Positions 14,273-40,394 of a stretch of 40,394 nt of DNA are shown in pieces; the stretch's first letter is position 1; each line of letters begins with the position of its first letter. The notes below the pieces were generated by a model. It saw only the letters and a list, made by a program, of their open reading frames with translations, did no database searches and was not told where the DNA came from. Position numbers and translations under genes: made by a program. The stretch covers positions 1 to 40,394 of IMG/VR virus record IMGVR_UViG_3300035216_001689. One strand, given 5' to 3'. The stretch comes from a virus.

Positions 14273-14274
14273 TT

Positions 14275-24200: not shown

Positions 24201-26602
24201 ACTTCTTCCACTAACGAGTTTATTACCTCGTGCCCAACATAATACTCCTCTTCTGATAGTTTAATAGACTGCTGATCAGCAGATCCTACCAATAAAAATA
24301 TCAAATTACTCAGATCCAACCGATCTTTTCCTTTTTCTCCAGGGCCTCCCTCTCCATTTTTTACGTCTTTCACTCCGTTGATTTCTATAGGCTGCCAAAG
24401 ATTAGGATTATTTTCTGGGTTTATATCTATTTCGGAAAACCAGTTTTTATTTTTAATATCTTGGTCTTCTGTATTTTTTAAAATATAAAAAATATCAGTT
24501 GATACCGTGCTTCCATTCTCGTCTTTTGCAGTCAGCAATTCTGTAAAATCTTCAAAAGAATCACCTTGATTGTAATCTCCCGTTATTTTATACAAAATCG
24601 ATTTACTTTCCAAAACGCTGCCCACCTTATTTACATATTGATTGCTTTGATTAAAGCTCCCTAAAATATCTCCAGCGTCTTGCCCCATCTCATAAAAACC
24701 AACCCCTCCATTATGCCTAGTGTACCTAACTTTATCTCCTTGTTGGTAAAATTTTTGATCATTAATCTTTATGTCTTTAAAGGAAAATTCTTGGTAATCA
24801 TTTATACTCTTAGTGGTTGTATAGAATTTTGCATTATTTTCATCTCCTTGATATGTTACGCTTGCTTCTTGGTCCTTATAAGTATAGTTTTCGTATCTAT
24901 TGAACTTCTCATTTAAGCTCAAACCAATAGAGTATGAGTATTTCTCTCCTCCCTCTTCGTAAGCTATGTACTCGCCCTTCTTGTATGTTTTCTTTGTCTC
25001 AAATTCTTTTAAATTGTCTGTAGGGCCAGATATTAACGTCGTATTTAATGACCTTGGCCCATAAAGAGGAGCGTTAATATCTACAGTGTTCGCAGTAAAC
25101 AAATATTGAGGCTCGAGCAGGGATTGGTCCTCACTGCCAATTATCCCCCCCTGATTTTGCGCTATATCAATGTCAAATTCGTTTACATTATACGAATCCT
25201 TATTAGTATCTGGATTAACCTCTTTTACAGAATAATCATCTAAAACAACTCCCTGCAGATAATCATCAGAAGGATTTCTTAAAAACTTAGGGTCACTTGG
25301 GTCCTCAATTTTGTCCGACTCTTTATTAAATTTTAAAGTTTCTCCGTTTTTATTACAAAAGCCGTCTATTGGCCCTTCGCAAATTAGATCTATAGTTTTG
25401 TATATTGATGATGACTCCATCTTGAACCACCCAACTCCATTATCTCTATTTGCATTTATCCACCTTTCTCCAACACTTATAGGGAAATACCCCTCTCGAG
25501 CTTTATCTTTGTACCCTATATAGGTGAGCTCTCCATCTTGCGCAAAAGCTATCGGGTAGAAAACTTTCTCCTCACCATTGGTATCTAACTGAGGAACGCT
25601 TTGCACACATGAATATGAAGTCCACCTAGCTTGGTTTCCTGGCACCTTATAAGTATGGTCTGCCTGTGATCTAGGGACCCAATTCCCGTCGTGACCCACC
25701 CCGATGTCACCGATTATACTGGAAACCCCCTTAAGGTAGTTCCATTCGTACCAGAAATACCCTGCTAACGAATTTCCTTTCCTCTCAACATTGCCTTGTC
25801 TTTCTGGGGTATTTATATATGGATTAACGTTTTCATCGATATTTGTTATTTGCTCTCTCTGAACATCTGCGTTTACAAAATCTCCATAAATCCCATCCTG
25901 CCCACCAAACTTAGTATTAGGTAGCATCTTCTTGAGAAACTGATAAGCAGGATCCGAAGATTTAAAATTACTACTTCCATCAAATAAATTCAAAACAAAA
26001 GAAGACATCAATGGTCCAGCCTCTGGATTGTAATGCTTATTGTATTTAGGTATTATACTAAAAATACCATTATCAAAACTTATAAGTTTGCCTGCCTCCA
26101 CATCATAATCATAATTTACATTGCACGAAGAAATTACATTGCTACCAACCAACATCCTTCCGTATCCAACCGGGATACTGGCGCCCTGATTAAATCTATT
26201 GTCCCCTCCTTCAAAAATAAAAGACTGAGTTTGAGTGACCAGTGTTTCATCATCCCGTTCCATTGCCTCGGCCATTTTCTTAGAAACTAACATCGATGCT
26301 GCCGTTGTCGCAGCCATCATAACCAAGTTTAATGCAAAGGTTGCCGACCCTTGTGGTACAGGAAATATATGTATATTCTTCCTCGTTGGAAGACTGTAAT
26401 CTTCTTGCCTTATAAATTCTCCACTAGGCAATTTTTTTATGCCATAGATTATTCCTTCTTTTTGTTTTTTATTTAGATAAATTTCTATTTCTTGTCGGTT
26501 GGCAAATAATGCTGAAATAGCCTCGCATGGAGAATCAACATCCAAGTCCCATTCTTCTCCAAACCTAGCTCCAAGCTCACCATGTAGAAATACCTTTTTC
26601 AT
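21218..26602 (-). CDS. Tail tip protein: gpI-like domain fused to gpJ-like host-specificity protein, with C-type-lectin-like insert
   Basis: 1794 residues from the ATG at 26602, which has an AGGT-type ribosome-binding site and lies 18 nt after the gpK stop; an earlier in-frame ATG at 26668 would overlap gpK by 49 nt. Residues about 1-90 (KKVFLHGELGARFGEEWDL, SPCEAISALFANR) match lambda gpI, followed by a hydrophobic stretch (ALNLVMMAATTAASMLV). The gpJ part starts at IPVGYGRMLVGSNVISSC. Middle landmarks are LYDLISNKRYGVGKFGI with WTLYKIAKYCDEFVSTGY, FASIFRAYAYWSGGAINFF, and YLKPGDIIDVMDNKR. A C-type-lectin-like domain occupies about 1470-1630, then gpJ sequence resumes (GRYKIVNITES) and a fibronectin-III-like domain ends the protein. 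About 600 residues between 200 and 900 are extra relative to lambda gpJ. It forms the tail-tip hub and first host contact. Confidence 0.9.
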   Translation of the reverse strand: MKKVFLHGELGARFGEEWDLDVDSPCEAISALFANRQEIEIYLNKKQKEGIIYGIKKLPSGEFIRQEDYSLPTRKNIHIFPVPQGSATFALNLVMMAATTAASMLVSKKMAEAMERDDETLVTQTQSFIFEGGDNRFNQGASIPVGYGRMLVGSNVISSCNVNYDYDVEAGKLISFDNGIFSIIPKYNKHYNPEAGPLMSSFVLNLFDGSSNFKSSDPAYQFLKKMLPNTKFGGQDGIYGDFVNADVQREQITNIDENVNPYINTPERQGNVERKGNSLAGYFWYEWNYLKGVSSIIGDIGVGHDGNWVPRSQADHTYKVPGNQARWTSYSCVQSVPQLDTNGEEKVFYPIAFAQDGELTYIGYKDKAREGYFPISVGERWINANRDNGVGWFKMESSSIYKTIDLICEGPIDGFCNKNGETLKFNKESDKIEDPSDPKFLRNPSDDYLQGVVLDDYSVKEVNPDTNKDSYNVNEFDIDIAQNQGGIIGSEDQSLLEPQYLFTANTVDINAPLYGPRSLNTTLISGPTDNLKEFETKKTYKKGEYIAYEEGGEKYSYSIGLSLNEKFNRYENYTYKDQEASVTYQGDENNAKFYTTTKSINDYQEFSFKDIKINDQKFYQQGDKVRYTRHNGGVGFYEMGQDAGDILGSFNQSNQYVNKVGSVLESKSILYKITGDYNQGDSFEDFTELLTAKDENGSTVSTDIFYILKNTEDQDIKNKNWFSEIDINPENNPNLWQPIEINGVKDVKNGEGGPGEKGKDRLDLSNLIFLLVGSADQQSIKLSEEEYYVGHEVINSLVEEVLVTLQVDELAYHYEGDNIEVSYEIGELWEWLILLTSGYYGTKSAFGVKEASDLFSMSALEASAQPVPAIASSKKFSERGAAKVKDAAVDGSISAGLLGLFVYIQSEDRWRIGNKIENSGEIWPNKAKFRIKYGNEGEVPYSTDVFMYGVATSPYRKDIKIYLPPNPSRKNRNIKVYKLNRERNLAKEGEIAARYKERFSLAGVTEITPTQLSYPNSVVIGTRVNAKDLPSVPNRNYHLKLKKIAVPSNYDPENRQYDGNWDGKFRGQASKDDPVPQPAKLWTDNPAWCLYDLISNKRYGVGKFGIKPENIDRWTLYKIAKYCDEFVSTGYSPKYQKREFELVGNGKIKINENYGADLFSKEFSHIDKKLAIYYDSGKCESIKIVNTQSTNKVIFLERNPVIDLGRCAVEIDYPLVEPRYTLNAFMMSSENAFNLINEFASIFRAYAYWSGGAINFFQDEKKESVMLFANNNTSKEGFSYSSTPKTSRTNSCKIKYLDKFNMFKPKMEYSEDRKSIQENNMIEQTIDGFGITSQSQAKRAADFIVKTANMESEIVSFETSAIGSYLKPGDIIDVMDNKRTVGRFAGKIIDVWAEPDAKSVKISVDYPINSLIDENDKNTWKSISIYTLSGNQTIETLDEKAVVQEQDIDNMRLPQINNFQVIDLYANNQEMTIIDNPYSFITGEYTFEEAAEDAEDRGGSLATINNETDQLMVQSVIGSGQTGWLAGYYLESPQPSRFVWLNPEDDCGSSNNGEIPFYSWAEGFPKIGDSIETHNNKEILVTDCDEYEIKTDPPEGFGDFIAVSGSHDHDVNGDWVTLKKKDKIGYIFERKLDDSLFKIKDSKGLTFSIEDSVNLAEPGRYKIVNITESSNGVYKIQGVEYNEDKFDNIEKSLSVKKPNSPVIFTENSLDAPSGVTVEILFEDIVDKIPYGIKASWERVEGAASYRVQFFSEDLLLSTFEIQANLELEIMSHDYRSEKIIENGNYYARVYSVAR
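21712..22197 (-). other. C-type-lectin-like domain inside the gpJ-like protein
   Basis: The segment reads as a CTLD: YTFEEAAEDAEDRGGSLATI (first helices and strand), a variable loop, GWLAGYYLE, FVWLNPEDDCG, FYSWAEGFP (the counterpart of the W..GEPN region), and KIGYIFERK as the closing strand. Two cysteines (DDCG and VTDCDEY) could pair. It interrupts gpJ sequence, which continues directly after it. CTLDs in phage tails and in diversity-generating systems bind receptors; sugar binding is an inference. Confidence 0.7.
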
Positions 26603-26619
26603 CCTTTTACCTAGTATAT

Positions 26620-27333
26620 TTACACTAACGAAGCATGCCTGTACACTTCTTTTATTTTTGATTGCCAACGCTCATCCAGTAATTCTCGGCGCGATAAAGT
26701 TCCACTTACTTGATGCATAAAATTATCATCACCAATATATATTCCAACATGAAACCTTTTACCTTTTTTAATTTCAAACACTATTACATCGTGTTTGTTT
26801 AATTTTTTATCTTCTATTTTAGATAAGTTTTTATTTAATATTTTTAATAATAGTTTATTTGCTTTATCGTCTTCTTCTGGAAGCCAGTAGTTTTTGTTCC
26901 ATTTAGATATGTTTATATTTAATTCTTTTTTAAAATAATCTTTAAACATACAAGTACATTCAAAAAATCCTTTTATATAAGGTCTACCAGTGAGCATATT
27001 AGTATTATAACTTTCAGGATAATATAAATAAAATTTTTTAGTAATTAAACTATAAATTAAATAAGGCACACCGACTTCCTCAGACATAGCGATATCAGGT
27101 TTTGACGGTTTTTCATTAGTCTTCGGGTGCGAATGATATATTCCGATTATTCTTTTATCCATATTGTGTTTTAAGAATTTTAACGGCGATATTGTGAAAT
27201 GCTCTATTGGATTAGTATGTTCATTTATTGCTGGTTCAACAGAAACAGTTAGATCCCTATTAAGCAATATGAATCCGCAAACTTCCTCTCCAGGGTTGCC
27301 TTCTGCATGTTTTATTATCTCAGTCTCAAACAT
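26620..27333 (-). CDS. Tail assembly protein gpK-like: JAMM/MPN plus NlpC/P60 domains
   Basis: 237 residues in two domains, as in lambda gpK. Residues 1-110 are a JAMM/MPN domain with EEVCGF (Glu) and HSHPKTNEKPSKPD, giving HxH-x10-D for zinc. Residues 125-237 are an NlpC/P60 cysteine peptidase with ECTCMFKDYF (Cys), RFHVGIYIGDD (His) and FMHQVSG. Family members act in tail-tip assembly and cleave peptidoglycan on entry. All expected metal and catalytic residues are visible. It follows the gpL-like gene with no gap and precedes gpI/J as in lambda. Confidence 0.92.
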   Translation of the reverse strand: MFETEIIKHAEGNPGEEVCGFILLNRDLTVSVEPAINEHTNPIEHFTISPLKFLKHNMDKRIIGIYHSHPKTNEKPSKPDIAMSEEVGVPYLIYSLITKKFYLYYPESYNTNMLTGRPYIKGFFECTCMFKDYFKKELNINISKWNKNYWLPEEDDKANKLLLKILNKNLSKIEDKKLNKHDVIVFEIKKGKRFHVGIYIGDDNFMHQVSGTLSRRELLDERWQSKIKEVYRHASLV

Positions 27334-28368
27334 CTATTTAAATTCATAAGGGTCAACCCCTGGAAATCCTCCGAATGGAAGTCCATTTTCAGATTCAGTC
27401 CAGGACCCTCCGCCATTTGGACTATTACTTACTCTTCTTCCTCCTCCTGCTCCAGTTGCTGCATCCGAAAACCTTAGCTTGCATCCGCATAAGCTTCTAT
27501 CACAATCATCAAGAACCCAGTTTTCTGTATCGTAAATAGGATTAGACCTAACGGCGTCATTAAGACATACATACATATCTACAGGGTTCAAGGAAGAGTC
27601 GTGATCAAATGGTACAATTCTAACCACATCTCCCCTCAAGTATGTTCCTGTTGCGGCCCAGTCAGGGTAAACTCCTCCTTCTTCTTCTTTCTTTCCGAAT
27701 TCTTTGTTTTGAAACTCCCCACTAAAGTAAACTTCTTCGCCAACCATATTTTGATTGTATCCGCTAGGAACAAATCTTTTATTTTTTTCGTCAGCAATAG
27801 GCTTGCCCTTGTACCCGCAACCTATATCTCCCCTATAGCGCCAACCGCAATTATTAGAATAAACAGTTCTAGCTGGTACGCTTGCGTTCTGTAATTCCAA
27901 TAAAGAGACCAGTTCGAATTCAACTATATTATCGTCTTCTTTTGTTTTTTGGTTTACGAAGAATACGTCTTCAGCGAATGACGCTTCAGGATCAGGCTCA
28001 GCATGCGGATTAACTCCATTTGGAAAATTTATTGCATCCAAATACTTAACAAATGTTTTAATCCTAGTAACCTTATAATTAATAAAGTCATTAAAATAAT
28101 TAAGCCTCAGGGAGATTACTCCTTGGTGGTTTGTGAATGTCATTTTTGGCCTAGGAAGCCTACCATCTCCATGAGTCTCAAATCCAGTAGCTTTTATTGG
28201 AAAAAAATCATACTCTTGACCATCAAAAACCAATTTCTTCTTGTACCCGTTTTCTCCTGCGTGAAAAAGATACTGTCCCTTATCGCGAAGATTTATTTTA
28301 TATAGACATATAATTGCGGAAGCGTCCAATTCAAATATAGCCTTAACATTACTATCGGTATTTTTCAT
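27334..28368 (-). CDS. Minor tail protein gpL-like with [4Fe-4S] cysteines and CBM-like insert
   Basis: 344 residues from the ATG at 28368; a TTG at 28374 is also in frame. The N-terminal domain (YDFFPIKATGFETHGDGRLPRPKMTF) and the beginning of the second domain match gpL. Four conserved cysteines for an iron-sulfur cluster are visible: NNCGWRYRGDIGC and LDDCDRSLCGC (five cysteines, one extra). Between the pairs is WAATGTYLRGDVV ... YVCLNDAVRSNPIYDTENW, a pattern like carbohydrate-binding module 5/12. The ending GLPFGGFPGVDPYEFK is the family C-terminus. It sits in the tail-tip baseplate between gpM and gpJ. Its cluster would be redox-sensitive, by analogy with lambda. Confidence 0.9.
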   Translation of the reverse strand: MKNTDSNVKAIFELDASAIICLYKINLRDKGQYLFHAGENGYKKKLVFDGQEYDFFPIKATGFETHGDGRLPRPKMTFTNHQGVISLRLNYFNDFINYKVTRIKTFVKYLDAINFPNGVNPHAEPDPEASFAEDVFFVNQKTKEDDNIVEFELVSLLELQNASVPARTVYSNNCGWRYRGDIGCGYKGKPIADEKNKRFVPSGYNQNMVGEEVYFSGEFQNKEFGKKEEEGGVYPDWAATGTYLRGDVVRIVPFDHDSSLNPVDMYVCLNDAVRSNPIYDTENWVLDDCDRSLCGCKLRFSDAATGAGGGRRVSNSPNGGGSWTESENGLPFGGFPGVDPYEFK

Positions 28369-28370
28369 TA

Positions 28371-29573
28371 TCAATAATTATTATAATTTATTCCGTTTTG
28401 ATTTGTAGTTCCATCAGCATTAACAGACCCCAAGAAATTAGAGATATTTATATTATTTTCAATGTTGTAGGAATATGCAGGTTTTGGTGGTAATCCATAA
28501 ACTCTACTAACCTCCTTGGTTTGCTTGATTACCGGAAGGTAAGATAACTCCGTCCTAATTTCTCTAATATTATCAGAAAAATTACTCTTCCCACCAAGCC
28601 CAATATGCCAATTCATATTATTATATTGATACCCATAACTATACTGAGCTAAATGATATATATCATCAGAAGCTCCAAAATAATAAAAACAATAAAATAT
28701 ATGATTTTTTAAAATTAAAGGATCCCTCGAAGATAATTCTATTTCTTCATTATCTATATACTTCCCCCAAAGATTACTTTTCATTTTTCCATTCCAGTTG
28801 TAATCTAAATACTCCCCAATTTGCTCTATGAATACTTCGTCTCTATTTTCTCCACTCTTGAATATTGAATCCGCGTTACAGTTTTTATTAATCTGAAATA
28901 TACTATTCCACTCCTCAAGCATTTCGCCTTTTTTTTGAGACGAATTAGTTTTCGCCACAAACTTGTCTGGCAATATCAAGCTTCCGGTTTCATTCGAGTT
29001 GCCACTAATAAAATTTCTCTTGATATCGATATTAAAAATGCACCCTTGAAGCGACGAAGAGGTTAAAGCTATAGATCCAGTTGAGCTTATGTTATTCTCC
29101 TCGATTTCTATAAAAGGCATATTTCCTTCAGTAGAGTGTACGTTAGACACCTCAACAACCCCCTGAGGAGACCAAGGTTCATCATAATAATCTTCAAGTA
29201 TTATTTTCCCAGAGTGAACGTATTCCGATTGACTTAAATCAGACTTTTTAGTTAAAGGTTTCAGGTTACCAATTGTGACATTTTCGCTACTAGATAAAGG
29301 CGATACGCTCTCTCCAGGTGCCCAGGGCATGGATTCTGGGTATCCCAGCTTATTGGTCTGCGAGGACGAAAGTTGCACAATTTGCTCGGAAACATATTTC
29401 ACTCTTTCAAACTTCCATATGTAGTCAGATTTTGTTTGGTATTCAATTATTCCAGTTGTCCCGCTATTGTATATTTTAATTCTTGATTGTGATTCTGCAT
29501 TCATTACCACCTGCATGCGAATGTAATCATTACTCGAATCATTATCTCCTGATGAAAAATTATATATATTCAT
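28371..29573 (-). CDS. Tail-operon protein, unknown
   Basis: 400 residues, overlapping the upstream gene by 4 nt (ATGA). It lies between the 460-residue protein and gpL. No family is recognised. It is rich in Ser, Asn and Tyr, with beta-type segments (GSIALTSSSLQGCIFNID; HIFYCFYYFGASDDIYHLAQY) and no membrane span or signal peptide. The C-terminus is Asn-rich. Position suggests a structural tail-tip component or a small decoration protein; this is inference from synteny, since the lambda operon has no equivalent between gpM and gpL. Confidence 0.6.
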   Translation of the reverse strand: MNIYNFSSGDNDSSNDYIRMQVVMNAESQSRIKIYNSGTTGIIEYQTKSDYIWKFERVKYVSEQIVQLSSSQTNKLGYPESMPWAPGESVSPLSSSENVTIGNLKPLTKKSDLSQSEYVHSGKIILEDYYDEPWSPQGVVEVSNVHSTEGNMPFIEIEENNISSTGSIALTSSSLQGCIFNIDIKRNFISGNSNETGSLILPDKFVAKTNSSQKKGEMLEEWNSIFQINKNCNADSIFKSGENRDEVFIEQIGEYLDYNWNGKMKSNLWGKYIDNEEIELSSRDPLILKNHIFYCFYYFGASDDIYHLAQYSYGYQYNNMNWHIGLGGKSNFSDNIREIRTELSYLPVIKQTKEVSRVYGLPPKPAYSYNIENNINISNFLGSVNADGTTNQNGINYNNY

Positions 29574-30952
29574 ATTATTTCTTCCATTGGGTATGCGTCA
29601 AAATTTCCGCTATCAACTATAAACATTCTTACATCTTCTGCTCCCCCTTGGACTATTTCTGCATTAAAGAAAACCGCTTGATTACTTAAGTCTCCCGCAT
29701 TCTGAACGGGCTCAACCTTTACAATCATACCTGTCCAGGAATAACCATCGAGATCAACAACTCCAGTATTATTACTTTCGTATGAGACTTCCATAATTTT
29801 GTCTTGATAATTTACTTGAGTAGGGGGAAATGTAGACTGCAATAAATTACTTATATCATTATGCTGCCCAGCTTGAATTAATTGATTAACCATAGAGTTG
29901 AACACCCCAAGAGATCCGGATACGCCTAGATTACCATAAGCCTCATACCAATTCGGCTTCATATTCTCAAGCATTGATGCGTAATTTAAAGAGATGTCTC
30001 TTAGGCCGGTAAAAACATTTTCAATTGAAACTTCATCCGAAGTATTAAGCTCTATTGTTTTCTTTTTATTTAAGAAATATTGGTTTTGTATTTTTTCTAT
30101 AGTTGACAAATCTGGCTCCACGAAGTTTTCATAATTATTTAAAAAATCAGTATTATTTATTGGGCACAAAAACTCTCCTTCAAGTAAAAATGATGGCTTG
30201 CAGTAGTTTGACTCTAATTCGGGATTCTCTGTTATGGACAAGTTTAATCCAGATTTCTCAAAAAATTGACTACCTTCATCCTCAGTATAAAAGACCTGCT
30301 CTCTTGGCATATAATTACTATCGCCTGATTCTTCGAACCATTGTCCAGACCCAATGTGCTCATCGTTTCGTAAGATTAAATTTTCACCAGCACCGTAGCA
30401 ATCATAACTTTCCCACCACATCACTGAAACGTAATCAGGCTGCCTACAATTCATAACTTCGAAACCTGGTAGAATATTTATTTTTGCGCTAAATTTATCT
30501 CCATCTCTATTTTCTAATGTGCCTGGGTGACCATTCGTTAGCTCTGAGATCAAAGGATGAAAGAATGTGTCTATCACTATTCTCTGAAATGGCTGGAGAG
30601 TAAAAGGTAACTCCGAGGTGTTTCCTGTATTATACTCAGGATAATCAGCGTAATCGGGATACTTAAATATGGAAAACCTTTGCGGGTCTGTATTTCTAAA
30701 TCCGGTTACAGTAATTGGAAGGTTACAAACATTAACTATGCTAATAAACTTCCCGCTATCTACCGTAACTCTACTTGAATCGCAGTCGAACTCGGTAGCG
30801 GGAAGACATGATCCATCATAAATTATTGTTCCGTAATTTTCCTGCAACACATACTCTTCTTGACCTTCCTGAATCATTGGGCCGCAGTCAAGTAGCGTTG
30901 TCTCACCAGTTGGAGACAAAGTTATCCCTGATTCTTGCGTTATAAAAGACAT
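29570..30952 (-). CDS. Tail-operon protein with ASH/Ig-like domain, unknown function
   Basis: 460 residues; the start overlaps the upstream stop as TAATG and the end overlaps the next gene as ATGA. Residues about 60-170 have a pattern of the ASH/choice-of-anchor sandwich: SIVNVCNLPITVTGF (a strand with 'N.G..PL.I'), FTLQPFQRIVIDTFFHP and SAKINILPGFE. The rest contains CxxC-type pairs (LDCG, CDSS, DCYG) and a helical segment (LNYASMLENMKPNWYEAYGN). The phrase QWFEESGDSN is related to QYFEESGENN in the 1668-residue neighbour. The C-terminus is a small beta domain. A structural tail-tip role is inferred from position. Confidence 0.6.
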   Translation of the reverse strand: MSFITQESGITLSPTGETTLLDCGPMIQEGQEEYVLQENYGTIIYDGSCLPATEFDCDSSRVTVDSGKFISIVNVCNLPITVTGFRNTDPQRFSIFKYPDYADYPEYNTGNTSELPFTLQPFQRIVIDTFFHPLISELTNGHPGTLENRDGDKFSAKINILPGFEVMNCRQPDYVSVMWWESYDCYGAGENLILRNDEHIGSGQWFEESGDSNYMPREQVFYTEDEGSQFFEKSGLNLSITENPELESNYCKPSFLLEGEFLCPINNTDFLNNYENFVEPDLSTIEKIQNQYFLNKKKTIELNTSDEVSIENVFTGLRDISLNYASMLENMKPNWYEAYGNLGVSGSLGVFNSMVNQLIQAGQHNDISNLLQSTFPPTQVNYQDKIMEVSYESNNTGVVDLDGYSWTGMIVKVEPVQNAGDLSNQAVFFNAEIVQGGAEDVRMFIVDSGNFDAYPMEEII

Positions 30953-33900
30953 TATTCAGTTATCCTTATTGATCCATTTAGCCATCCGTCCATGTCTACG
31001 GAGATTATATCTACTTCAGATATACCAAAACCCATTAAGTAGTCGTCTAATAATGGCTTCAAAGATGCCTTATGATATAATAAAAATGGCCCAGTTTTTT
31101 GGAATAAAATATTTCCGCTAAAATTAGTGCCCGAAAACACTTCTATTGTTACATTTTGTTTTGCGCATAAACTTCGAACTTCTTGATAAAATGAATTCCT
31201 TCCTATTGCGGCGGAACTGGTAAACATTTTCCTTATATTATTTCCGTCAGTTATCGAAGACGAAGTTAGGAATGAAATTTGCGAAGGCTCCTTGTAAAGG
31301 TTATCTTTAATGTATTCTTGGCTAGAAAAAACTGGTATAAAAGATCTAGTAGTAGAATCGGCTCCAACATTTCCATCGTCAAGTACTAGTTTAACAATTT
31401 CTGCTTGTCCCTGCTCTATAGATTTACCATCGTTTGACCCGCCCAGCGGAAGGTTTGATAAATGCGCGCCATATCCGACTACTTTTTCATTTTTTTGTGG
31501 TACGGGTTCACTTAAAGCAGCCACGTTACTGGCTGGCGCGTTTATATTAAACTCATAATTCGCATACCCATCCATACCCTTAAATGTTCCATCGTCAGAA
31601 TTAACAACCAATTGAATCTCTTCCGAAAAGTCGCTGAGTTTTCCAACCCTAACGCCAAAGAATAAATCTAGTTTTTCTCCAGGTTTTATTATCGGCAAAT
31701 GAGAGTAGTCTCCCTGAAATTTATTGGCACGAGTAATGTTACCTATATTATAGTCAACTATTTCTAGACCAGAGTTAGCCCTAAATACCCTGACCGGCGA
31801 CCCCTTGAAAGCTACCCCCGCGTTCTTAACCCCTAAACTCTGCGAAGAATTTCCTGACCAACCTCCATTTATATTAGTGGCGACACCCTCCCTGATAACT
31901 TCGTATTTAGTATTAAAGGATTCCCAGAGTATATTTGAATTGTCAGGCTCATCTGACAGTAATTGTTGATTGCTTAAATCCCCAAAATATTGACCCCCAA
32001 ACCCCTTAACTATAGAATCCTTGCTTTGTGTAGATTTGGTATATTTTATATCTTTATTACTGCCGCCCTTAACTATACCTTGTTTTAATATTTCCGTTGT
32101 CCACTTGACGGGGTTATTCTGCTCACCCACATTAATTAATGTATTTAAAAGCTTAACGTCATGCGGCCCGCAATTGTATAAAACTATAGAAAATAAATTT
32201 TCATATCCAGAGTCGTTAGTTACCAATTCTACTACTTTTATTAAATCCATCATTCTGGCAACTTCCCCACCGGGATCCCCTTCTTGCGTTATAGGAAAAA
32301 AGAATTGAGGTTTTTTTTCAGGAGGATCCAGGTAAGGCTCCTGCCCATCATAATCATATACGTAATTTGTGGCATACTTTGACAATTGCCCATCGACACC
32401 AATCTGAGCAAACATAAAAACTGTCGGCAGTTCTTCTTCGTACCAAGAAGGATTTTGCCCCCCAAGGTCAGGGTTATTGTACCGTGAGCTGCCCGCATTG
32501 TTTTCTTTTGTCTTGTAGGCTTCTAATTTTTCATAAGGATTTTGAGATTGATAGCCATATTTCTTAAGAGTGGCATCATCTGGCCTTCTTTTTGCAAGTT
32601 CTCCACCTTTTCTTAATTGAGCACACATGTCAAGAGCATATTGGCTATAAAATTCATTATAGTCGTGACTTGCCCCCTTTAGGGGCATGGTGGCGTCAGC
32701 GGTTGTAAAAACTCCATCGCTTAGCATTATAACTATTCTATCTGTCACATGTTCAGCTCGCGGACTATTATAAAACTGAGCCAAGGCCTGGCTAATCGCC
32801 CTAGGTGAATCTTCCAATAGTGGGTCATTAGTATCTTTTATGTCTATACTCTTATAAGATTGCACTTTATCAAATGAGTTTGGGTAATCTGAAACATCCT
32901 GAATTACCTGCCTGGTATCTGCCATCAGTATAAAGCCAAGGTTTATTCTTTTTTCATCTATCTTTATTTTAAACCTATCTAAATTTTGTAAATTATACCC
33001 GTTATCAGAAAGTAAATCGCCAAGCTCCCTCAACGGGTCGTAAAGTTTACCTATTAAACTGTTAAGAATCTGATTCCCCGCAGGCCATGGCGGCATTGAG
33101 TCATCTCCACTTATGGAGCCATAAGATAATTCGGGTGCATCATAAACCCCCCCAAAAGACTTAGTTCCAGGCATTACGTATCCATCATGAGCTGTAATCA
33201 TTTTTAAAATAACATCGATTGCCATTGTGTATTTCGATAGAGTCTCCCCCTCTACCTTGAGGTATTGATTGGTCATACTTCCAGTAGTATCGACAATAAA
33301 CACTAAGTCAACCGCCTTCGACTTTCCCGACAAAGAATTGTTCGCTCCGATGTCAAATCCGATACCTTTACTGGCCTGAAGCACAGAAGAAAATGTACAC
33401 AATTCGTGCTTGGTTATCGGGTTATGTATTTCCGCGCCATAGCAAGGCCTATCCTCCGCTCTTTCTCCTATTCCAAACACCGACCTCAAATCTTCTTCTA
33501 TAGAGCTAGTTGACTCTATGAACGTTGCGGAAATCGTATGATTATTTTTGTAAACTACATCGTGACCCCAACTAGGGCAATAGAAGTTCGAACTTAGAGG
33601 CTTTGTTGGTGACGTTATTGGGTTAGAGTCCATCAGGTATGGTCTAGGCATATTGAATCTAAACTTCTTGTACCCAAGGTGACTTTCTAAAAATTGTAAT
33701 ATTTCAGCCGCTTCCTGATCGCTTCTTTTATCAAAAACCACATTAAATGTAGATAAATTTGAATTTAATTCTTTTTTATATTTCTTATTATAGTATTTTA
33801 CAAAATTTGATTGTATGTTGTCTGGAGTATGCTTGATATTAAAAGCTAAACTTGGCTTTTGGTCAAAACTCCTAACTTCTAGCCATGGATACTTTGGCGT

Positions 33901-35958
33901 TTCATCTGGATCTTTTAGGTATATACTGCTTCTTCCTTGTACTGCAGAGATCAATAACCAAAAGTCGTCCTCAGCGTCTAATGTGAAATTTTCCATCGGG
34001 GTAAACTGGATGGTTGTTGTATCTGCGTCTATGTCTGAGTCTATTTGAAGTCTTCTGTAGTTTTTTAAATAAACTTGCCTCTTTCTAATTTCTCCGGTTG
34101 CTGGGTCTCTTACTGCTGATTTTATTTTTTCCACCCCTGCCGGCAAAGCAACTTTATTAAACGAACAATCTTCAGGGCACCCAGAGAGCTTTTTTATTGA
34201 TATGTTATTGTAGAAAACAAAATTTTCTCCTCTTATTGTTATATTATTTTCGCCCGATTCTTCGAAATATTGAGCGCCGTATTCCAGTGAGGCAGTTTCA
34301 CCTCTTGGGCTAATTTGATCTCCCGCCCTGACCGACCAAACTTGATCTGCTGGATTTATTGTTTCTATTTCGTCGCCCAGTATTTCTAACTGATCTGCCT
34401 CTTTTTCCTGAAACCACTGAACGGATGTTTCTTCTCCAGCAGACGAAGTAGCCCTCAAGTTAGCCACGTCTTCATATGAGCCTTCAGATAATACTGGGGA
34501 AAATATAAATTCTGTATCAGATACTTTTTCAATTATCTTGGTTTTTCTTACGTTAAATATGGAATCCGTAGGATTTTTCACATTTATATATATGCAGTCT
34601 CCTCTTTGGAAGTTTTCTGGATTAACAAATCGAACCCTTCCTCCAGATATCTCACTTGATCCAGGTTCACTATATTTAGTTATTCCCTCTACGTTGCTGG
34701 GCTCAATTTTTTTTGCGTTTTCATTTTCTGTTGAAAACGTGTTTAATTTTATAGGCTGGCCTTTTACAAAATCAGTTTTTTCATCTATGAATACTGGAAT
34801 AAGAGCGTCGATTCTGCTATTATATCCAGCATGGCTCTCAACGCTTGATAGTGAGCTCTCAGTATTGCATATGAATTTTGCATTTATTTTATTATTATTC
34901 CTGTAGACTATAGAATGGTTAAAGTCAGTGCAAGTATATTTTAGATCTTCTTTATATGGGTAAGTATATTTGAAATTAAAAGACGCTATTTCGCTTGATA
35001 ATAACCTATCCCCTTTATAGTCTAAACTAAAAATAGATTCATAGGAAAAAGACTTCTCTTGCAAAAAATGAACTATAGCCCTAGCTTCCTTATCCGTTCT
35101 ATTATTAAAATTTAAACTAAGTTCCAAGGGTAATGAATTTATGGCCATGTTAGTTACATAGTCCTTACCTTCTCCCATTTTCAACTGATCATTAATGGCT
35201 ACAAAATCAGACTTCGACCCATAAGAAGGTCTCCATAAAAAATCTTGCGTCCAGTAGCCCGAACCATTCTTAGAGTTTGGCGCATTAAAATCTTCCGACT
35301 CATGATCCCTAGTGCAATAAAAAAATCTCCCTAAATTAGAAACAAAAGGATTCTTAAAAATAAAACTGCCAGATTTATGGCCGTAAACAAAAATTTTCAA
35401 ATAGCCTCCAACTGCACCCTCTGGAATAGAAGAAGAATCTATGTCAATAGCGACATTGTAATACTCTTCATTATTAAGTTCGCTGCCGGCCATTAATCTA
35501 TGATTAGACCTTGAGTCCGAAACTTCTAATTCCTCCCCTGAGTCATCTTGAAATATTACAGCCACCCCGACACCTATAGAATTATTAACATCTACCAACC
35601 CCCCACTGTTTCTCGTTAAGTAAGTTTTATATTCATCTATCGTTAATGTCCCTTGATCAACTTTCCTGACCATGCAGTTTGCAGAATAACTCAAGTTTTT
35701 ATCTACAAAAAAATAACTACCTATTGCTGTTTCTTCGCTTCTTGATAATTCAACTTCCCCCAATAAATCGGCAGATATTACATTTTCCTCATCAGTTAAT
35801 ATTGGTTCGTATTCTTCATTCGACAAAGGTTGAACCAAGTCTCCATTTTCATCTGTGCGTTGAAATCTCTCAGGTGGAAATGCTAAATTTTCAACTTGAA
35901 CTATGTCATCTTTTTCATACTTTTTTTTAGTATGCCAGGCTTGCGTCGGTATATCCAT
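30952..35958 (-). CDS. Large tail-tip protein: two gpM-like domains fused to a von Willebrand A domain
   Basis: 1668 residues. Order: an N-terminal CBM5/12-like segment (AWHTKKKYEKDDIVQV and, later, FFYCTRDHES ... GYWTQDFLW); a gpM-like domain at about 245-365 (RTDKEARAIVHFLQEKSFSY; HSIVYRNNNKINAKFI); a beta-rich middle; a second gpM-like domain at about 700-815 (KRSDQEAAEILQFLESHLGY; FYCPSWGHDVVYKNNHTISA); a von Willebrand A domain from about 880 with MIDAS D890-x-T892-x-S894 (FIVDTTGSM), a Thr near 1045 and MLSDG with D1081; then a beta-sandwich tail (ASH-like: IIKPGEKLDLFFGVRVGKL). gpM in lambda links tape measure to tip. A MIDAS domain usually binds a protein or glycan ligand through Mg2+. 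This is a fused, much enlarged gpM. Start and stop overlap its neighbours as TAATG. Confidence 0.78.
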   Translation of the reverse strand: MDIPTQAWHTKKKYEKDDIVQVENLAFPPERFQRTDENGDLVQPLSNEEYEPILTDEENVISADLLGEVELSRSEETAIGSYFFVDKNLSYSANCMVRKVDQGTLTIDEYKTYLTRNSGGLVDVNNSIGVGVAVIFQDDSGEELEVSDSRSNHRLMAGSELNNEEYYNVAIDIDSSSIPEGAVGGYLKIFVYGHKSGSFIFKNPFVSNLGRFFYCTRDHESEDFNAPNSKNGSGYWTQDFLWRPSYGSKSDFVAINDQLKMGEGKDYVTNMAINSLPLELSLNFNNRTDKEARAIVHFLQEKSFSYESIFSLDYKGDRLLSSEIASFNFKYTYPYKEDLKYTCTDFNHSIVYRNNNKINAKFICNTESSLSSVESHAGYNSRIDALIPVFIDEKTDFVKGQPIKLNTFSTENENAKKIEPSNVEGITKYSEPGSSEISGGRVRFVNPENFQRGDCIYINVKNPTDSIFNVRKTKIIEKVSDTEFIFSPVLSEGSYEDVANLRATSSAGEETSVQWFQEKEADQLEILGDEIETINPADQVWSVRAGDQISPRGETASLEYGAQYFEESGENNITIRGENFVFYNNISIKKLSGCPEDCSFNKVALPAGVEKIKSAVRDPATGEIRKRQVYLKNYRRLQIDSDIDADTTTIQFTPMENFTLDAEDDFWLLISAVQGRSSIYLKDPDETPKYPWLEVRSFDQKPSLAFNIKHTPDNIQSNFVKYYNKKYKKELNSNLSTFNVVFDKRSDQEAAEILQFLESHLGYKKFRFNMPRPYLMDSNPITSPTKPLSSNFYCPSWGHDVVYKNNHTISATFIESTSSIEEDLRSVFGIGERAEDRPCYGAEIHNPITKHELCTFSSVLQASKGIGFDIGANNSLSGKSKAVDLVFIVDTTGSMTNQYLKVEGETLSKYTMAIDVILKMITAHDGYVMPGTKSFGGVYDAPELSYGSISGDDSMPPWPAGNQILNSLIGKLYDPLRELGDLLSDNGYNLQNLDRFKIKIDEKRINLGFILMADTRQVIQDVSDYPNSFDKVQSYKSIDIKDTNDPLLEDSPRAISQALAQFYNSPRAEHVTDRIVIMLSDGVFTTADATMPLKGASHDYNEFYSQYALDMCAQLRKGGELAKRRPDDATLKKYGYQSQNPYEKLEAYKTKENNAGSSRYNNPDLGGQNPSWYEEELPTVFMFAQIGVDGQLSKYATNYVYDYDGQEPYLDPPEKKPQFFFPITQEGDPGGEVARMMDLIKVVELVTNDSGYENLFSIVLYNCGPHDVKLLNTLINVGEQNNPVKWTTEILKQGIVKGGSNKDIKYTKSTQSKDSIVKGFGGQYFGDLSNQQLLSDEPDNSNILWESFNTKYEVIREGVATNINGGWSGNSSQSLGVKNAGVAFKGSPVRVFRANSGLEIVDYNIGNITRANKFQGDYSHLPIIKPGEKLDLFFGVRVGKLSDFSEEIQLVVNSDDGTFKGMDGYANYEFNINAPASNVAALSEPVPQKNEKVVGYGAHLSNLPLGGSNDGKSIEQGQAEIVKLVLDDGNVGADSTTRSFIPVFSSQEYIKDNLYKEPSQISFLTSSSITDGNNIRKMFTSSAAIGRNSFYQEVRSLCAKQNVTIEVFSGTNFSGNILFQKTGPFLLYHKASLKPLLDDYLMGFGISEVDIISVDMDGWLNGSIRITE

Positions 35959-37157
35959 TACCTATAAGATTGTTTTATTGTTGCGGTTCCCTTAAGGAAT
36001 CCTCCCTCTGATACACTTAAATTATCTTCCTCCACTACACCATAATCTCTTAGTTCCTGTGATGGCAACTCTGGGTAGACTAAACTTCCAGCTAATGCAA
36101 ATTTTTTAAGAAGTCCAGCATTATTATCGGTAAAATCTTTATTAAACCCTATGTCTGATAACTCAACCACGACACTTGCCCTTTGCCCCGATATCTTAAG
36201 AAATGGATCAAGTTTTTCGCCTTGAATTCTTATGGATATTTCTATTTGGTCTTTTGTTACCCTGGTTGGCACCTCCCCCTCTTCATCTATTTTTCCGCTA
36301 ATAGGCACAGGTATTTCTGGACTCCTGTTCGAGGATATTGAGTACTCAAAATTTAACGGATAGTCTATTCCAATCCCAGATGCGCCTATAAGTTTTGTGT
36401 TTATAGCGTGTGGCACACTAAATTGGTTTTCCTTTAAGCATTGATAATCATTAATAATTGACTCAGATAACCCTTCCTGATATTTCATTCTGCCATATAT
36501 GTCTATGCTTAAATTGGCTTCTATGATCTGAAAAGGCTCAGCTGAAAAACTCAGCTCCCTCAAGTATGCGTCTTCAAAAATATAATCCCCAAAACTCCCT
36601 GTTAACTTAGCTTCATTAACCTGAGGGTAAATAGTTGGATCCATCAATCCAGTTAAATCTGCAAACGTATTAAGATTTCCAGTATTCATATAGTAAGATA
36701 TATTTAAAGAACCCTTGACAGCATTAGAGGCAGCATAATTCCTTAATACGTCAACCTCTCCATATTCTATATCTCTATCGTAGTCCAATATTGTCTCACC
36801 GGTTGACCTAACTTTAATATGATAATCTCCAGGAGATAGATCCTCAGCCAGGTAAAGGGCCTGCCCTCCAGGATAGGCTATTTTGTATCCACTAGGTATA
36901 GCTTCTACTGATTCTGGCAGTTTAACTCCGGGGCCGCTTTTTGGCCCCATCAGGAATCCAGATTCATAAGCTCCAGTAAAATGTATGTCTCCTGATTGTA
37001 GGGCAAATGACACATTGTAATCATCTAGAAATTTTTTAGCCTTTATAGGTTGACTGGCCGACAGTCCAGCGCTACGAGCAAACACCATCATCGGCTCTTG
37101 CCCTTCTGACGCCAGCAAAACTGGCACATCTTCGTATCTGTAAAAAGGCTTGCTCAT
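35958..37157 (-). CDS. Putative tail-tube-like structural protein B
   Basis: 399 residues, coupled to the upstream gene by ATGA. Alternating strands run through the protein, for example KGSLNISYYMNTGNLNTFAD, ANLSIDIYGRMKYQE and ISIRIQGEKLDPFLKISG, and it ends KGTATIKQSYR. The C-terminal strand resembles the end of its upstream neighbour (KITVNLTYKSYYNKR), so the two may be distant paralogues with tail-tube-type folds. Position between the tape measure and gpM fits a tail component near the tip. No named family is evident. Confidence 0.6.
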   Translation of the reverse strand: MSKPFYRYEDVPVLLASEGQEPMMVFARSAGLSASQPIKAKKFLDDYNVSFALQSGDIHFTGAYESGFLMGPKSGPGVKLPESVEAIPSGYKIAYPGGQALYLAEDLSPGDYHIKVRSTGETILDYDRDIEYGEVDVLRNYAASNAVKGSLNISYYMNTGNLNTFADLTGLMDPTIYPQVNEAKLTGSFGDYIFEDAYLRELSFSAEPFQIIEANLSIDIYGRMKYQEGLSESIINDYQCLKENQFSVPHAINTKLIGASGIGIDYPLNFEYSISSNRSPEIPVPISGKIDEEGEVPTRVTKDQIEISIRIQGEKLDPFLKISGQRASVVVELSDIGFNKDFTDNNAGLLKKFALAGSLVYPELPSQELRDYGVVEEDNLSVSEGGFLKGTATIKQSYR

Positions 37158-38182
37158 CTCTTATTATAATAAGATTTATACGTTAAATTTACAGTTATCT
37201 TACCTTCAGTAGAAGCCGACATAGACTCGCCTATTAATCTTGCGCTTTTAACTATGTAATTCTGTATGGTTTCACCGAAGCAATCGTTAATCTTAATCGC
37301 TATATCCTCAATATGAGGGTTCCTTAAGTATTTCCTCATGCTTTGGTATCTATATTCATCAATATCCAAACTGAAATTTGTTGTGCTAGACATTGGCCAT
37401 ACAACATCTACTTGAGCTGGAACAGAAGACCCCACCGTATATATGGGGCTAAGAGGAACTTCTATACTATGACTAAAAGAAGTTACCCTATCTGTTGAGG
37501 CTCCTGCGCATTCTATTGAAATTGAACCTTGATTAGTTATTCTTATTTCCGGAAAAGGATTGGAGCCGGATGCATTATACACCCCATCATTTGATTCTTC
37601 CGTGGAAACCCTAAACCCACCTTGCTCTTGCAAGAAAAAACCGTCCTGGCTTTCGCTTTTTACGTAGTCTGGAGATCCACCTATATCCCCAAAAACCCTA
37701 ATTGACGTGGAGGTTGTCGGCAATTGACCAACAGAGCACGATACCGAATGATTACTTATGTATCCCTGATCGAAGCCAAAATACTGATCTCCATGATGTA
37801 TGCTACCATTAAAGGAATTATCCCCCGTAAACTGAAGAAAAAAATCCTCGCTTACTAAAATTGAATTTATTGAAAAACTACCCTCAAGAGGGGAATTTAT
37901 TAAAGCCATACTTCTTGGTGGCTTTGGTCTATATTGATCAACCGCACACTCCAAGCTTTCATCAATTAAAACATGAAAACCATTTTCGTCTAAAATAAAA
38001 GATCCATCAGGCTGAAGCATTCGCGACGGATATTGATAAAAATTTTGATTAACGTGCCCCCATCCTAGAATATTTATAGGTTCTTCGTTTATGGAATAAG
38101 ATCCATCAACGCTCTGCACACCATGGATTTGGGTGCCATTTATGAAGAATTTCTGCTCATAACCTAATACGGCCTGCTTCAT
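37154..38182 (-). CDS. Putative tail-tube-like structural protein A
   Basis: 342 residues from the ATG at 38182, which overlaps the tape-measure stop as TGATG; an in-frame TTG lies one codon upstream, and a good ribosome-binding site (GGTGGAG) precedes both. It is beta-rich: SVDGSYSINEEPINILGWGHV, EGSFSINSILVSEDFFLQF, GSISIECAG, FSLDIDEYRYQSMRKYL and the C-terminal KITVNLTYKSYYNKR, typical of tail-tube-like proteins. No membrane span or signal peptide is seen. Structural role is inferred from composition and from its place next to the tape measure. Confidence 0.6.
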   Translation of the reverse strand: MKQAVLGYEQKFFINGTQIHGVQSVDGSYSINEEPINILGWGHVNQNFYQYPSRMLQPDGSFILDENGFHVLIDESLECAVDQYRPKPPRSMALINSPLEGSFSINSILVSEDFFLQFTGDNSFNGSIHHGDQYFGFDQGYISNHSVSCSVGQLPTTSTSIRVFGDIGGSPDYVKSESQDGFFLQEQGGFRVSTEESNDGVYNASGSNPFPEIRITNQGSISIECAGASTDRVTSFSHSIEVPLSPIYTVGSSVPAQVDVVWPMSSTTNFSLDIDEYRYQSMRKYLRNPHIEDIAIKINDCFGETIQNYIVKSARLIGESMSASTEGKITVNLTYKSYYNKR

Positions 38183-40394
38183 CAACTAAGCTCTCCACCT
38201 ATCCTTTTTTCATCTCTAATCACTTCGAGAACGGCGCTTTTTATTTTCATCGATAATTCTTGCTCTTTCTCGTAAGATCCTGAGGATCCGTCTGTGGAAA
38301 CTTTCTCTTGGCCAGATTGATCTATCGTTACATTTACGTTTATGTTGTTGGTTGTGGCTCTTTTTTGAGTTGCATCATTGTCCTTGGTAGCTGGCGATCC
38401 TTGGAAAGATGTCTGGTTGAGCATTTGAGCTGGATCACTTGCGCTCAACCTGTTAACCGGACCTGATCCTTTTGCCGGCACAGAAGGGGCGGACCTTACC
38501 GGAGAATTTGAAACCATGCCTCCATCGTAATATCCGGATTCACCCCGCTTGAATCCATCAGGGTTTTGTAGGGCGAATTTCATCATTGCTGGATTCTCCC
38601 TAAGCAATTTGTCTGTGGAGCTTTTCTTTATTATAAAATCCCCTTCTGTTAGTCCTACTGGGCCTACATTATCTATTCCTCCTGGACCTTGAATAATTGG
38701 CATTTCGCCAGTTTTATTCATTCTGTCCAAATTATCGTAACCGATTCTGTTAGCTAAACCCGATGGAATAAAACCTTCTCCCGCTGTAAGCATTGCTGGT
38801 ATCGAGCCGCCAGACTTCCTGCCTAATAAACTATTTTTATCCCTATGGCTCAAAGTTTTTGATGCATCGAACTTCCAGGTCCCTTCCCTGGACATAGTGT
38901 AAGCTTGATTATCATTAGATATTAAATACCCAGTAGACTCAGCGCCTTTAAGGTCATTGTAATCCATATCGATATTCTGCTTCCTTGCTTGCTTGAATGC
39001 TTCAGAATGCTTGCCTAGACCTGAATGACCCATAGCAGTATTCTGTATCGATTTTAATATGTAAGGCGATGCGGCTGCAACTAAACCAGAAGCGGCTGTA
39101 GCGCCCACCATTTGAACTATAGACCCTATTTTTTGCTGCTTCTTCTTAAACTTCTCATTGGTTTTCTGTGTTTCGTAGGCAGCCTTCTCTAGCAAGAAAT
39201 CTTTATACTCTTGCATTACAGGGTCTCTTGCTAAAAATCTAGAACTCAATCTTGGATCTCCTCTTGAAATATTTACGTCTGATCTTAAGTCTAAATTTTT
39301 GAATTTATTTTTATCAAAGGTTGGAGGAGAAGATGAATCTTCGTTCTGCATAGATTTAGCTACAAATTTAGCCACTTCATTCATTACCACCATTTGTGTT
39401 ATGCCTTCTGTGCCCGCCCTAACTCGACTCTTTTGCCGTGCGCCTTTTTGGCCGGTTCCATTATCGAATTTTTGAGCTTCTTCTTTTGGTACCACGTATT
39501 CTCCGGCGGTCAACATCGCGGGCACTTTATCCACTCCAGCTGGCCCAGTAACAAACCCGCCCTTTGCAAATTCTTGCACTGGCATAAGATTATTACCAGC
39601 ATTCAAAGCTAAAGTATTTGCATTGATGGCTGCCACTAAGGTCGTATTTGAATTCAGTAGCGCCGCATTGGAAAGGTTTAACGCCTGATTGGAACTGTTT
39701 AACGCCTGATTGGAACTGCTTAACGCCTGATTGGAACCGTTTAATGTCTCATTCGAGCCCTTTAGCATAACATTAGACTCTTTCAACAACATATTAGAAT
39801 CCTTTAGTAAATCCTGACCGGTAAATGCAAAACTTAAATTAGACATAATCTTATCGATATTATGCTCCATTATTCTATCAAGAAGGGATTCCGCTAAACC
39901 TAACCCAAAATCGCTCCAAGCCTCAGACGCACTTTTAGCCCCAGACCCTATAGACTTAAATAAATCCTTTAAACCTGACCTTGCATTATCAAAACCAATA
40001 TTAACTAAGTCTGCACCCAGGTTGGCCGCATTGACGCTCATCTCAGCCATTTTTTCTCTAAGTGCATCTGCTGCTCGTGTTCCATTCTGGAACTCCAAAT
40101 TAACTGCGGTCATTGCTTCAGCTAATGCTTTTGCATCTTCCGGCGAGCCTGTTTGTTGAAATTTTTCTTCAGCAAACTGCAGGTTACCTTTAGCCGAAAT
40201 TTTACTCTCCGCAATCTGCCCAGCAACAAGTTGTGTAATTTTCCCCTGCTCTGCTAATTGTTTTATTTTTTCTTGATTTATTAAATTAGTAGTATTTAAA
40301 TTTAATATTTCTGCATTTGTTTGTCTGGTAACTAAGTCTATTCTATTTTTTTCTATATTATAGAAATCATTTTTTATTTGGGCATCTCTTTCGG
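38182..40394 (-). CDS. Tail tape measure protein, N-terminus beyond the right edge
   Basis: The frame is open from the stop at 38182 to the right edge, giving 736 visible residues; an internal ATG at 40113 is not the start. N-terminal visible residues are helical (NLNTTNLINQEKIKQLAEQG), then GLGLAESLLDRIMEHNIDKI. A run of seven-residue repeats (SNQALSSSNQALNSSNQAL) follows, then three copies of a tape-measure C-terminal module: GPAGVDKVPAMLTAGEYVVP, SIPAMLTAGEGFIPSGLANR and GPGGIDNVGPVGLTEGDFII. The three copies of 'PAMLTxGE' are a common feature of tape-measure C-termini. It sets tail length and is ejected into the host. Length of the whole is unknown. Confidence 0.88.
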   Translation of the reverse strand, partial: ERDAQIKNDFYNIEKNRIDLVTRQTNAEILNLNTTNLINQEKIKQLAEQGKITQLVAGQIAESKISAKGNLQFAEEKFQQTGSPEDAKALAEAMTAVNLEFQNGTRAADALREKMAEMSVNAANLGADLVNIGFDNARSGLKDLFKSIGSGAKSASEAWSDFGLGLAESLLDRIMEHNIDKIMSNLSFAFTGQDLLKDSNMLLKESNVMLKGSNETLNGSNQALSSSNQALNSSNQALNLSNAALLNSNTTLVAAINANTLALNAGNNLMPVQEFAKGGFVTGPAGVDKVPAMLTAGEYVVPKEEAQKFDNGTGQKGARQKSRVRAGTEGITQMVVMNEVAKFVAKSMQNEDSSSPPTFDKNKFKNLDLRSDVNISRGDPRLSSRFLARDPVMQEYKDFLLEKAAYETQKTNEKFKKKQQKIGSIVQMVGATAASGLVAAASPYILKSIQNTAMGHSGLGKHSEAFKQARKQNIDMDYNDLKGAESTGYLISNDNQAYTMSREGTWKFDASKTLSHRDKNSLLGRKSGGSIPAMLTAGEGFIPSGLANRIGYDNLDRMNKTGEMPIIQGPGGIDNVGPVGLTEGDFIIKKSSTDKLLRENPAMMKFALQNPDGFKRGESGYYDGGMVSNSPVRSAPSVPAKGSGPVNRLSASDPAQMLNQTSFQGSPATKDNDATQKRATTNNINVNVTIDQSGQEKVSTDGSSGSYEKEQELSMKIKSAVLEVIRDEKRIGGELS
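39638..39805 (-). repeat. Eight 21-bp units encoding heptads in the tape measure
   Basis: Units start every 21 bp from 39638. The middle three (39680, 39701, 39722) are nearly identical, reading CGCCTGATTGGAACTG in their core; the outer ones are diverged. They encode L/A-x-x-SN-x-x-type heptads (SNQALNS), a short helical rod. The near-identity of the middle three points to recent tandem duplication. Confidence 0.85.

Follow-up and report, generated by a model that had tools for sequence, protein, structure and literature searches.

A von Willebrand A domain behind tandem gpM-type domains in a distal tail protein of an uncultured marine phage, with a variable face suggestive of host recognition

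The DNA considered here, called the window, is a stretch of 40,394 nucleotides from an uncultured marine virus of bacteria (IMG/VR record IMGVR_UViG_3300035216_001689, positions 1–40,394). The tail genes discussed below are all read from the minus strand. They begin with the C-terminal part of a tape measure protein (38182..40392), which is cut by the contig end and matches ORFs of up to 1923 amino acids at the equivalent position in relatives; its identity is taken from length and position. Two conserved tail genes of 343 and 399 amino acids follow (37154..38185 and 35958..37157), each at the equivalent position between the tape measure and the gpM slot in all 15 relatives checked. After them come an ORF of 1668 amino acids (30952..35958), a 460-aa gene (29570..30952), a 400-aa gene (28371..29573), a gpL-type hub protein (27334..28374; Phage_tail_L PF05100, E 1.3e-47), a gpK-type protein with JAB and NlpC/P60 parts (26620..27333) and a gpI/gpJ-type fusion, the central tip protein (21218..26668; Phage-tail_3 PF13550, E 3.1e-20, with a weak Lambda_tail_I match at the N-terminus). 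The order tape measure, 343, 399, tandem gpM, L, K, I/J is constant in the loci checked, with or without a von Willebrand A (VWA) domain in the gpM-type protein. The 1668-aa ORF is a real gene, starting with an ATG at 35958 that overlaps the stop of the upstream gene (TAATG coupling) and kept in 24 distinct homologous proteins, the window's own counted in. It lies between the tape measure and gpL, as gpM does, with two conserved genes separating it from the tape measure, in agreement with the original prediction, which placed it at the junction of tape measure and tip. In a cultured-phage collection, no relatives were found for the whole protein, for its VWA domain or for the M1–M2 part. A Flavobacteriaceae host was considered on the basis of one MAG contig (L088) and rejected: PF05939, the gpM family, occurs in 1 of 299 genomes of that bacterial family, which is the MAG itself, so that its contig may be a binning error.

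Two gpM-type domains are found within the 1668-aa chain. The second, M2 (residues 698–815; 33514..33867), matches the Pfam family Phage_min_tail (PF05939) with an E-value of 9.7e-14 and 52.1 bits, above the curated cut-off of 39, and its profile also finds lambda gpM in the PDB (8iyk_M, E 0.0044). The first, M1 (about residues 237–370; 34849..35250), gives a weaker match when searched alone (E 2.3e-5, 25.1 bits, below the cut-off of 39), yet 7 of 7 members match, hhalign aligns M1 with M2 (probability 97.4, E 1e-11), and by these profile comparisons M1 can be regarded as a real gpM-type domain. Both are modelled with low confidence. Between them lies a beta-rich region (residues 376–690; 33889..34833) whose length varies among relatives and which contains a short repeat, QxFEESGxNxxxI, near residues 514 and 563. 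Lambda gpM has 109 amino acids in a single domain and is present in six copies, whereas here there are two diverged copies per chain and about 1400 further residues; the likeness lies in the domain family and in the gene slot from tape measure to gpL. Since the gpM hallmark of a single domain of about 110 amino acids is lacking, the protein is not a plain gpM, although it includes domains of this family and occupies the gpM slot. The original prediction was right that there are two such domains where gpM is normally small, but the pair is no departure from the norm: both copies are present in 40 of 40 further distinct distant relatives that are complete here, marine phage proteins without VWA, and the duplication was rejected as a novelty. 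It is old and ordinary, being the usual condition in a large group of phages. It was also considered that VWA might be common to all tandem-gpM proteins, and this was rejected, as the VWA profile finds no match in the 40 distant relatives and Pfam none in the seven of them scanned. One subgroup carries the VWA as an accessory module, at the gene position that gpM takes in lambda.

The VWA domain (residues 880–1252; 32203..33321) is weakly visible in sequence searches. PF00092 reaches E 0.0037 and 17.9 bits on the isolated region, short of its curated cut-off of 23.8, which is a detection threshold and not a structural definition; 7 of 9 members match the family, and the best relative gives E 1.1e-4. 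A PDB sequence search with the domain returned unrelated matches only, for example Pumilio. The AlphaFold model (m35187a0296ee) has pLDDT mostly 75–93 in this region, Foldseek matches it to MIC2, TRAP, factor B and PitA, and VIA gives Z-scores of 15–16.6 to the A-domains of integrin I, CMG2, TRAP and collagen VI, with 16.6 for collagen VI and TRAP (183–191 residues at 2.5–2.7 Å). A fold search in BFVD gave R4TII5, an unnamed protein, as best match (E 4e-5), with a poor superposition. As judged from the model, the fold is decisive and outweighs the Pfam shortfall. A Rossmann-like VWA fold around D890, on which the original prediction had staked its claim, is found with Z up to 16.6, and the proposed fusion behind a duplicated gpM is confirmed, with M1 and M2 as placed above and VWA at 880–1250. 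In the literature searched no protein with this domain order was found, and the order is absent from the cultured-phage collection, as the prediction had supposed.

The metal site (MIDAS) of the VWA consists of the motif D890-x-T892-x-S894 (33277..33291), invariant in the close clade, and of D1081 on strand 4 (32716..32718), an aspartate in all 24 homologues that cover the position. All four residues stand where they had been predicted, giving the DxSxS/DxTxS motif with the strand 4 aspartate, and a chance motif is ruled out by fold and conservation. Well-studied VWA adhesins have a canonical threonine in the MIDAS. No conserved threonine is found in MIDAS loop 2 among the homologues, so the site, described earlier as intact, has four of the five canonical residues. 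Within one or two residues of the threonine position is Glu1049 (32812..32814), which is a glutamate in 18 of 18 homologues with an otherwise intact site and absent in 6 of 6 with an altered one; it perhaps replaces the threonine. As strong proof the covariation is weakened by there being only about two independent losses on the VWA tree. Metal-dependent binding by the VWA is likely, as far as these residues can tell. The MIDAS is broken or altered in 6 of 24 homologues and one relative (L038) lacks the VWA altogether, so that some phages of the group manage without the metal site or without the domain. Four of the MIDAS-degenerate VWAs (L012, L032, L034, L035) make up a single clade in the tree of VWAs but lie apart from one another in the trees of M2 and gpL, which speaks for the exchange of whole VWA alleles.

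Behind the VWA is a beta-sandwich, Ig-like region (residues 1271–1481; 31516..32148), conserved among homologues, with strands in the model and pLDDT of 55–80 in the modelled parts plus a low-confidence stretch. The chain ends in an exchangeable domain of 187 amino acids (residues 1482–1668; 30952..31515), for which neither Pfam nor PHROGs gives a match in the window's own protein; among the C-terminal domains searched, only that of L029 matches PHROGs well (phrog_24956). The domain is replaced in L007/L008, L024/L028 and L001/L006, pairs of phages that are otherwise 92–99.6% identical: DNA homology stops at query residues 1479–1507 and resumes where the gene ends or close to that point. A larger replacement is seen in L029 as compared to L017, which starts at residue 860 and takes in most of the following two genes (the equivalents of the 460-aa and 400-aa genes) between flanks that are >99% identical, and the C-terminal domain of L029 has relatives in cyanophages, once beside the baseplate gene gp9.

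Within the VWA the MIDAS strand is invariant (0.0) and variability is highest in the three loops beside it, with 1.30 extra residue types per site versus 0.64; none of 451 circular shifts is as high. Loops 2 and 3 lie in a segment of about 90 codons (residues 1016–1106; 32641..32913) that divergent phages have exchanged. The window and L014 share 95.4% nucleotide identity within it and 67.5% outside, with 28 of 31 identical 4-fold sites inside and 85 of 264 outside; L001 and L017 share 97.5% within and 73.0% outside. The reverse is seen in L001/L002, L014/L017 and L007/L008, which are 93.5–98% identical and drop to 75–85% at this segment or an interval overlapping it. The 4-fold sites agree in these cases, with 0 of 1000 shuffles in each. 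Variability that is local and repeated at one site might come from a diversity-generating retroelement (DGR) or from silent donors elsewhere in the phage's own DNA, but this is a very improbable source: the phages share the block as an allele, 4-fold sites included, and do not show scattered point changes, and no second copy of the segment, DGR template or silent donor is found either in the window or in the loci retrieved, these genomes being partial.

The swapping of DNA for the gripping face suggests that the VWA is used for host cell recognition. The loops could also vary to escape a host defence or to coevolve with another virion protein. In L001 and L002 loops 2 and 3 differ while the following genes are about 94% and the C-termini 95% identical, and this favours an outside partner over a neighbouring tail protein. 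The same pair tells against a reading that makes the VWA no more than a rigid arm or a scaffold for assembly, with specificity residing in residues 1482–1668 and the 460-aa and 400-aa proteins and with loops that fit those partners. Such a scaffold would explain why the C-terminal domain is the part replaced most often, why VWA, C-terminus and 460/400 genes change together in L029, and why some relatives do without the metal motif. It is rather unlikely, since L010, L030 and L031 retain the VWA without a C-terminal domain, and the variable positions cluster at the MIDAS face with the MIDAS residues spared. We consider it probable that the protein fills the distal (gpM) slot in a siphophage tail of the lambda type and has been enlarged to serve as an arm for host recognition, with ring and MIDAS-face specificity. 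The narrower proposal, that an integrin-I-like metal-dependent face is the primary receptor-binding site, with Glu1049 for threonine and a 90-codon loop cassette that is recombined while the metal site stays fixed, is put forward tentatively. Of the original prediction of metal-dependent adhesion, the adhesion gains independent support from variability and recombination at the metal-site face and from the swapping of C-termini; the metal dependence does not extend to the whole group, in view of the 6 altered sites and of L038.

In the structures of lambda and T1, gpM is found between tube and hub (PMC10721106, PMC11945409), and in lambda six copies in two conformers form a threefold ring that joins the sixfold tube to the threefold hub (PMC10721106). 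Sequence and fold show that two gpM domains in the chain here are followed by a VWA that has four of the five MIDAS residues, and this in turn by the Ig-like region and the exchangeable C-terminal domain. By analogy with lambda, since M1 and M2 are not confidently modelled, three copies of the protein would supply the six gpM domains, M1 and M2 would adopt the two conformers, and three VWA arms would hang off the joint of tube and tip. Tandem gpM may then be a simple genetic answer to the step from sixfold to threefold, with one chain providing one domain per conformer. The pattern of variability and recombination suggests that the MIDAS face and C-terminal domain touch a ligand that varies, the simplest candidate being a structure on the host surface. 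This contact would set adsorption specificity and in the window's phage probably involve bound Mg2+ or Mn2+. The original prediction went further and proposed that the ligand signal could be passed on to the tail tube; on such a reading a conformational change like that of integrin I domains would travel through the gpM ring and trigger DNA release. The I-domain fold, its covalent joining to gpM domains and the location of lambda gpM at the tube-tip joint would all suit such signalling, but there is no evidence for a switch, and relatives without the metal site, or without the VWA (L038), keep the same tail genes; it is improbable, and nothing found here supports it.

To our knowledge, phage receptor-binding modules are mostly beta-helical, jelly-roll or fibre-like. 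VWA domains are exposed and put to adhesive use in the tip adhesins PitA and Mfa5, in TRAP and MIC2 and in integrin I domains. The likeness of these to the protein described here lies in the VWA fold; PitA (Streptococcus oralis pili), Mfa5 (Porphyromonas gingivalis type V pili), TRAP and MIC2 (apicomplexan parasites) and the integrins are cellular proteins without gpM domains. If the proposal is true, the use of an I-domain for adsorption would link phages to the adhesion chemistry on which integrins, pilus tips and parasite adhesins rely, and the exchanged loop segment marks likely contact residues ahead of experiment, which makes the idea directly testable. Proteins with VWA/MIDAS of a CobT-like, AAA-ATPase-linked kind are known from tailed phages and archaeal viruses such as Hardycor1 and HVTV-1 (PMC8651126, PMC7911831), but these belong to replication or accessory regions beside AAA ATPases, in contrast to the tail-tip region seen here. 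The evolved distal tail (evoDit) proteins of Skunavirus, and of further siphophages that infect Gram-positive bacteria, carry extra binding domains that promote adsorption and show strain specificity (PMC10688798). Both are distal-tail cores enlarged with added domains; in evoDit a single Dit contains carbohydrate-binding modules as insertions, whereas here the VWA, the Ig-like region and the swappable C-terminus come after tandem gpM. A module of that kind may be present here too, as a beta jelly-roll domain near the N-terminus (residues 66–240; 35239..35763; pLDDT mostly 78–91) resembles CBM4/16/22 and the beta domains of phage fibres and tailspikes, a likeness that is suggestive only at a best Foldseek E of 0.0046–0.03 and VIA Z-scores of 5–7.

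The best reading of the minus-strand ORF at 30952-35958 is that its product, a protein of 1668 amino acids, is a distal tail protein turned recognition arm. The ORF start overlaps the preceding gene at TAATG. Its homologue family consists of 24 distinct proteins on IMG/VR contigs, with no homologue among 50,697 GenBank phage records. The two gpM-like domains proposed ahead of a von Willebrand A (VWA) domain are both found. The second (M2, residues 698-815) clearly belongs to the Phage_min_tail/gpM family (E 9.7e-14) and also matches the solved lambda gpM structure. The first (M1, about residues 237-370) is not listed when the whole protein is searched against families. Searched alone it belongs to the same Phage_min_tail family (E 2.3e-5; 7/7 members match), and profile comparison matches it to M2 (E 1e-11). 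AlphaFold models both gpM domains with low confidence.

In 40 further distinct viral-contig proteins that lack a VWA, the M1 and M2 profiles each detect both domains in unchanged order; with the M2 profile the second domain scores far above the first, while the M1 profile for the most part favours the first. The tandem gpM is therefore an old feature, fixed in a large phage group. In the loci compared, the gene order (tape measure, a 343-aa and a 399-aa gene, tandem-M protein, L, K, I/J) does not change with the presence of the VWA, and the VWA subgroup forms nearly a single clade on the gpL tree. Inside that clade, the related locus L038 is a natural VWA-less variant (1-750, directly before gpL), in which M2 runs directly into a domain resembling the start of the product of the 460-aa gene. 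In VWA-less relatives the protein seems to carry accessory domains of other kinds: those of 1374-1893 aa (loci L041, L045, L046, L047, L048, L066 and L076) have long uncharacterised extensions before M1 or after M2.

Sequence profiles give weak matches for the VWA. In an AlphaFold model built from an alignment of 20 homologues, this region has pLDDT mostly 75-93, and its best solved structural matches are A-domains: MIC2, TRAP, factor B and the pilus protein PitA by Foldseek, and, by VIA Z, collagen VI and TRAP (16.6), CMG2 (about 16), the integrin alpha2 I domain (15.7) and the Porphyromonas pilus tip protein Mfa5 (15.1). The matched part covers residues 880-1252. The model bears out the original prediction of a VWA fold around D890. 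The metal site (MIDAS) had been called intact; D890, T892, S894 and D1081 are present at the positions given, but the fifth residue, the loop-2 Thr, lacks conservation. Glu1049 lies within 1-2 residues of the canonical Thr place in 18/18 homologues whose site is otherwise intact, and the position is Lys, Arg or Ser in 6/6 with an altered site. Since the VWA tree places the altered VWAs in about two groups, this covariation reflects no more than about two independent losses, and the tie between Glu1049 and an otherwise intact MIDAS is only suggestive.

Among nine close relatives the MIDAS-motif strand shows zero variation, and variability in the VWA peaks in the three loops around the metal site (1.30 vs 0.64 extra residue types per position; 0/451 circular shifts as high). 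Between the window and locus L014, DNA identity is 95.4% in codons 1016-1095 vs 67.5% over the gene, with 28/31 fourfold sites identical inside this segment vs 85/264 outside. L001/L017 show the same pattern (97.5% inside vs 73.0%). The reverse is seen in L001/L002, L014/L017 and L007/L008, pairs otherwise 93.5-98% identical, whose identity drops to 75-85% within that stretch or one overlapping it. In 1000 shuffles no such value, high or low, is reached. Purifying selection cannot account for fourfold sites that match in one pair and differ in another, but recombination does, with the segment exchanged between phages. This segment holds loops 2 and 3 plus D1081, and no second copy is found in the window or the relatives' loci examined.

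The C-terminal domain (residues 1482-1668) is replaced between phages otherwise 92-99.6% identical; in L007/L008, L024/L028 and L001/L006 homology is lost at residues 1479-1507 and resumes at the gene end or close to it. Several unrelated types of this domain occur among relatives. Between L029 and L017, whose two flanks are >99% identical, the whole stretch that starts at residue 860 and takes in most of the next two genes is replaced, and the metal motif is gone from the L029 VWA. Whole modules that are exchanged while the structural genes around them stay conserved typically mark parts used in host recognition. The L029 C-terminal domain (L029 10275-10766) matches phrog_24956 and has related proteins in cyanophages S-SSM7 and Sf-FS3 and in Xanthomonas phage XacN1; the S-SSM7 relative adjoins baseplate gene gp9.

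Lambda gpM is present in six copies that adopt two conformers and build a threefold ring, which sits between a sixfold tube and a threefold hub (PMC10721106), and the T1 tail tip resembles that of lambda (PMC11945409). By analogy, three chains with two diverged gpM domains each could build a lambda-like ring, one domain per conformer; we infer that three VWA arms would extend from this three-copy ring. The gpL-type hub (window 27334-28374) has a cysteine-rich C-terminal region, and the corresponding region of lambda gpL binds an iron-sulphur cluster (PMC10721106).

A comparable role is known for evolved Dit proteins, but these carry carbohydrate-binding modules (PMC10688798), whereas the added part here is an A-domain. 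Two points are less sure: that the window phage binds in a metal-dependent way, and that its partner belongs to the host surface and not to the virion. L001 and L002 differ in their loops but are almost alike in the genes that follow and in their C-termini, which favours a partner outside the virion. The phage VWA proteins found in the literature searched, a collection without most subscription journals, lie outside the tail, beside AAA ATPases or in accessory regions; no tail-tip VWA was found there.

A short repeat module, QxFEESGxNxxxI/L, is common to the tandem-gpM protein (residues 514 and 563) and the product of the next gene, ORF 29570-30952 (204 and 229), and a related stretch occurs at the N-terminus of the L007/L008 proteins. 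Elsewhere in the window, a nucleotide-sugar/glycosyltransferase block (2850-6622 and 9605-16763, beside 272-2737) contains UDP-glucose/GDP-mannose dehydrogenase, NAD-dependent epimerases, GDP-mannose 4,6-dehydratase and several glycosyltransferases. It could serve to modify sugars on the host surface, the virion itself or DNA, and on this phage contig it adjoins a ribonucleotide reductase large subunit.
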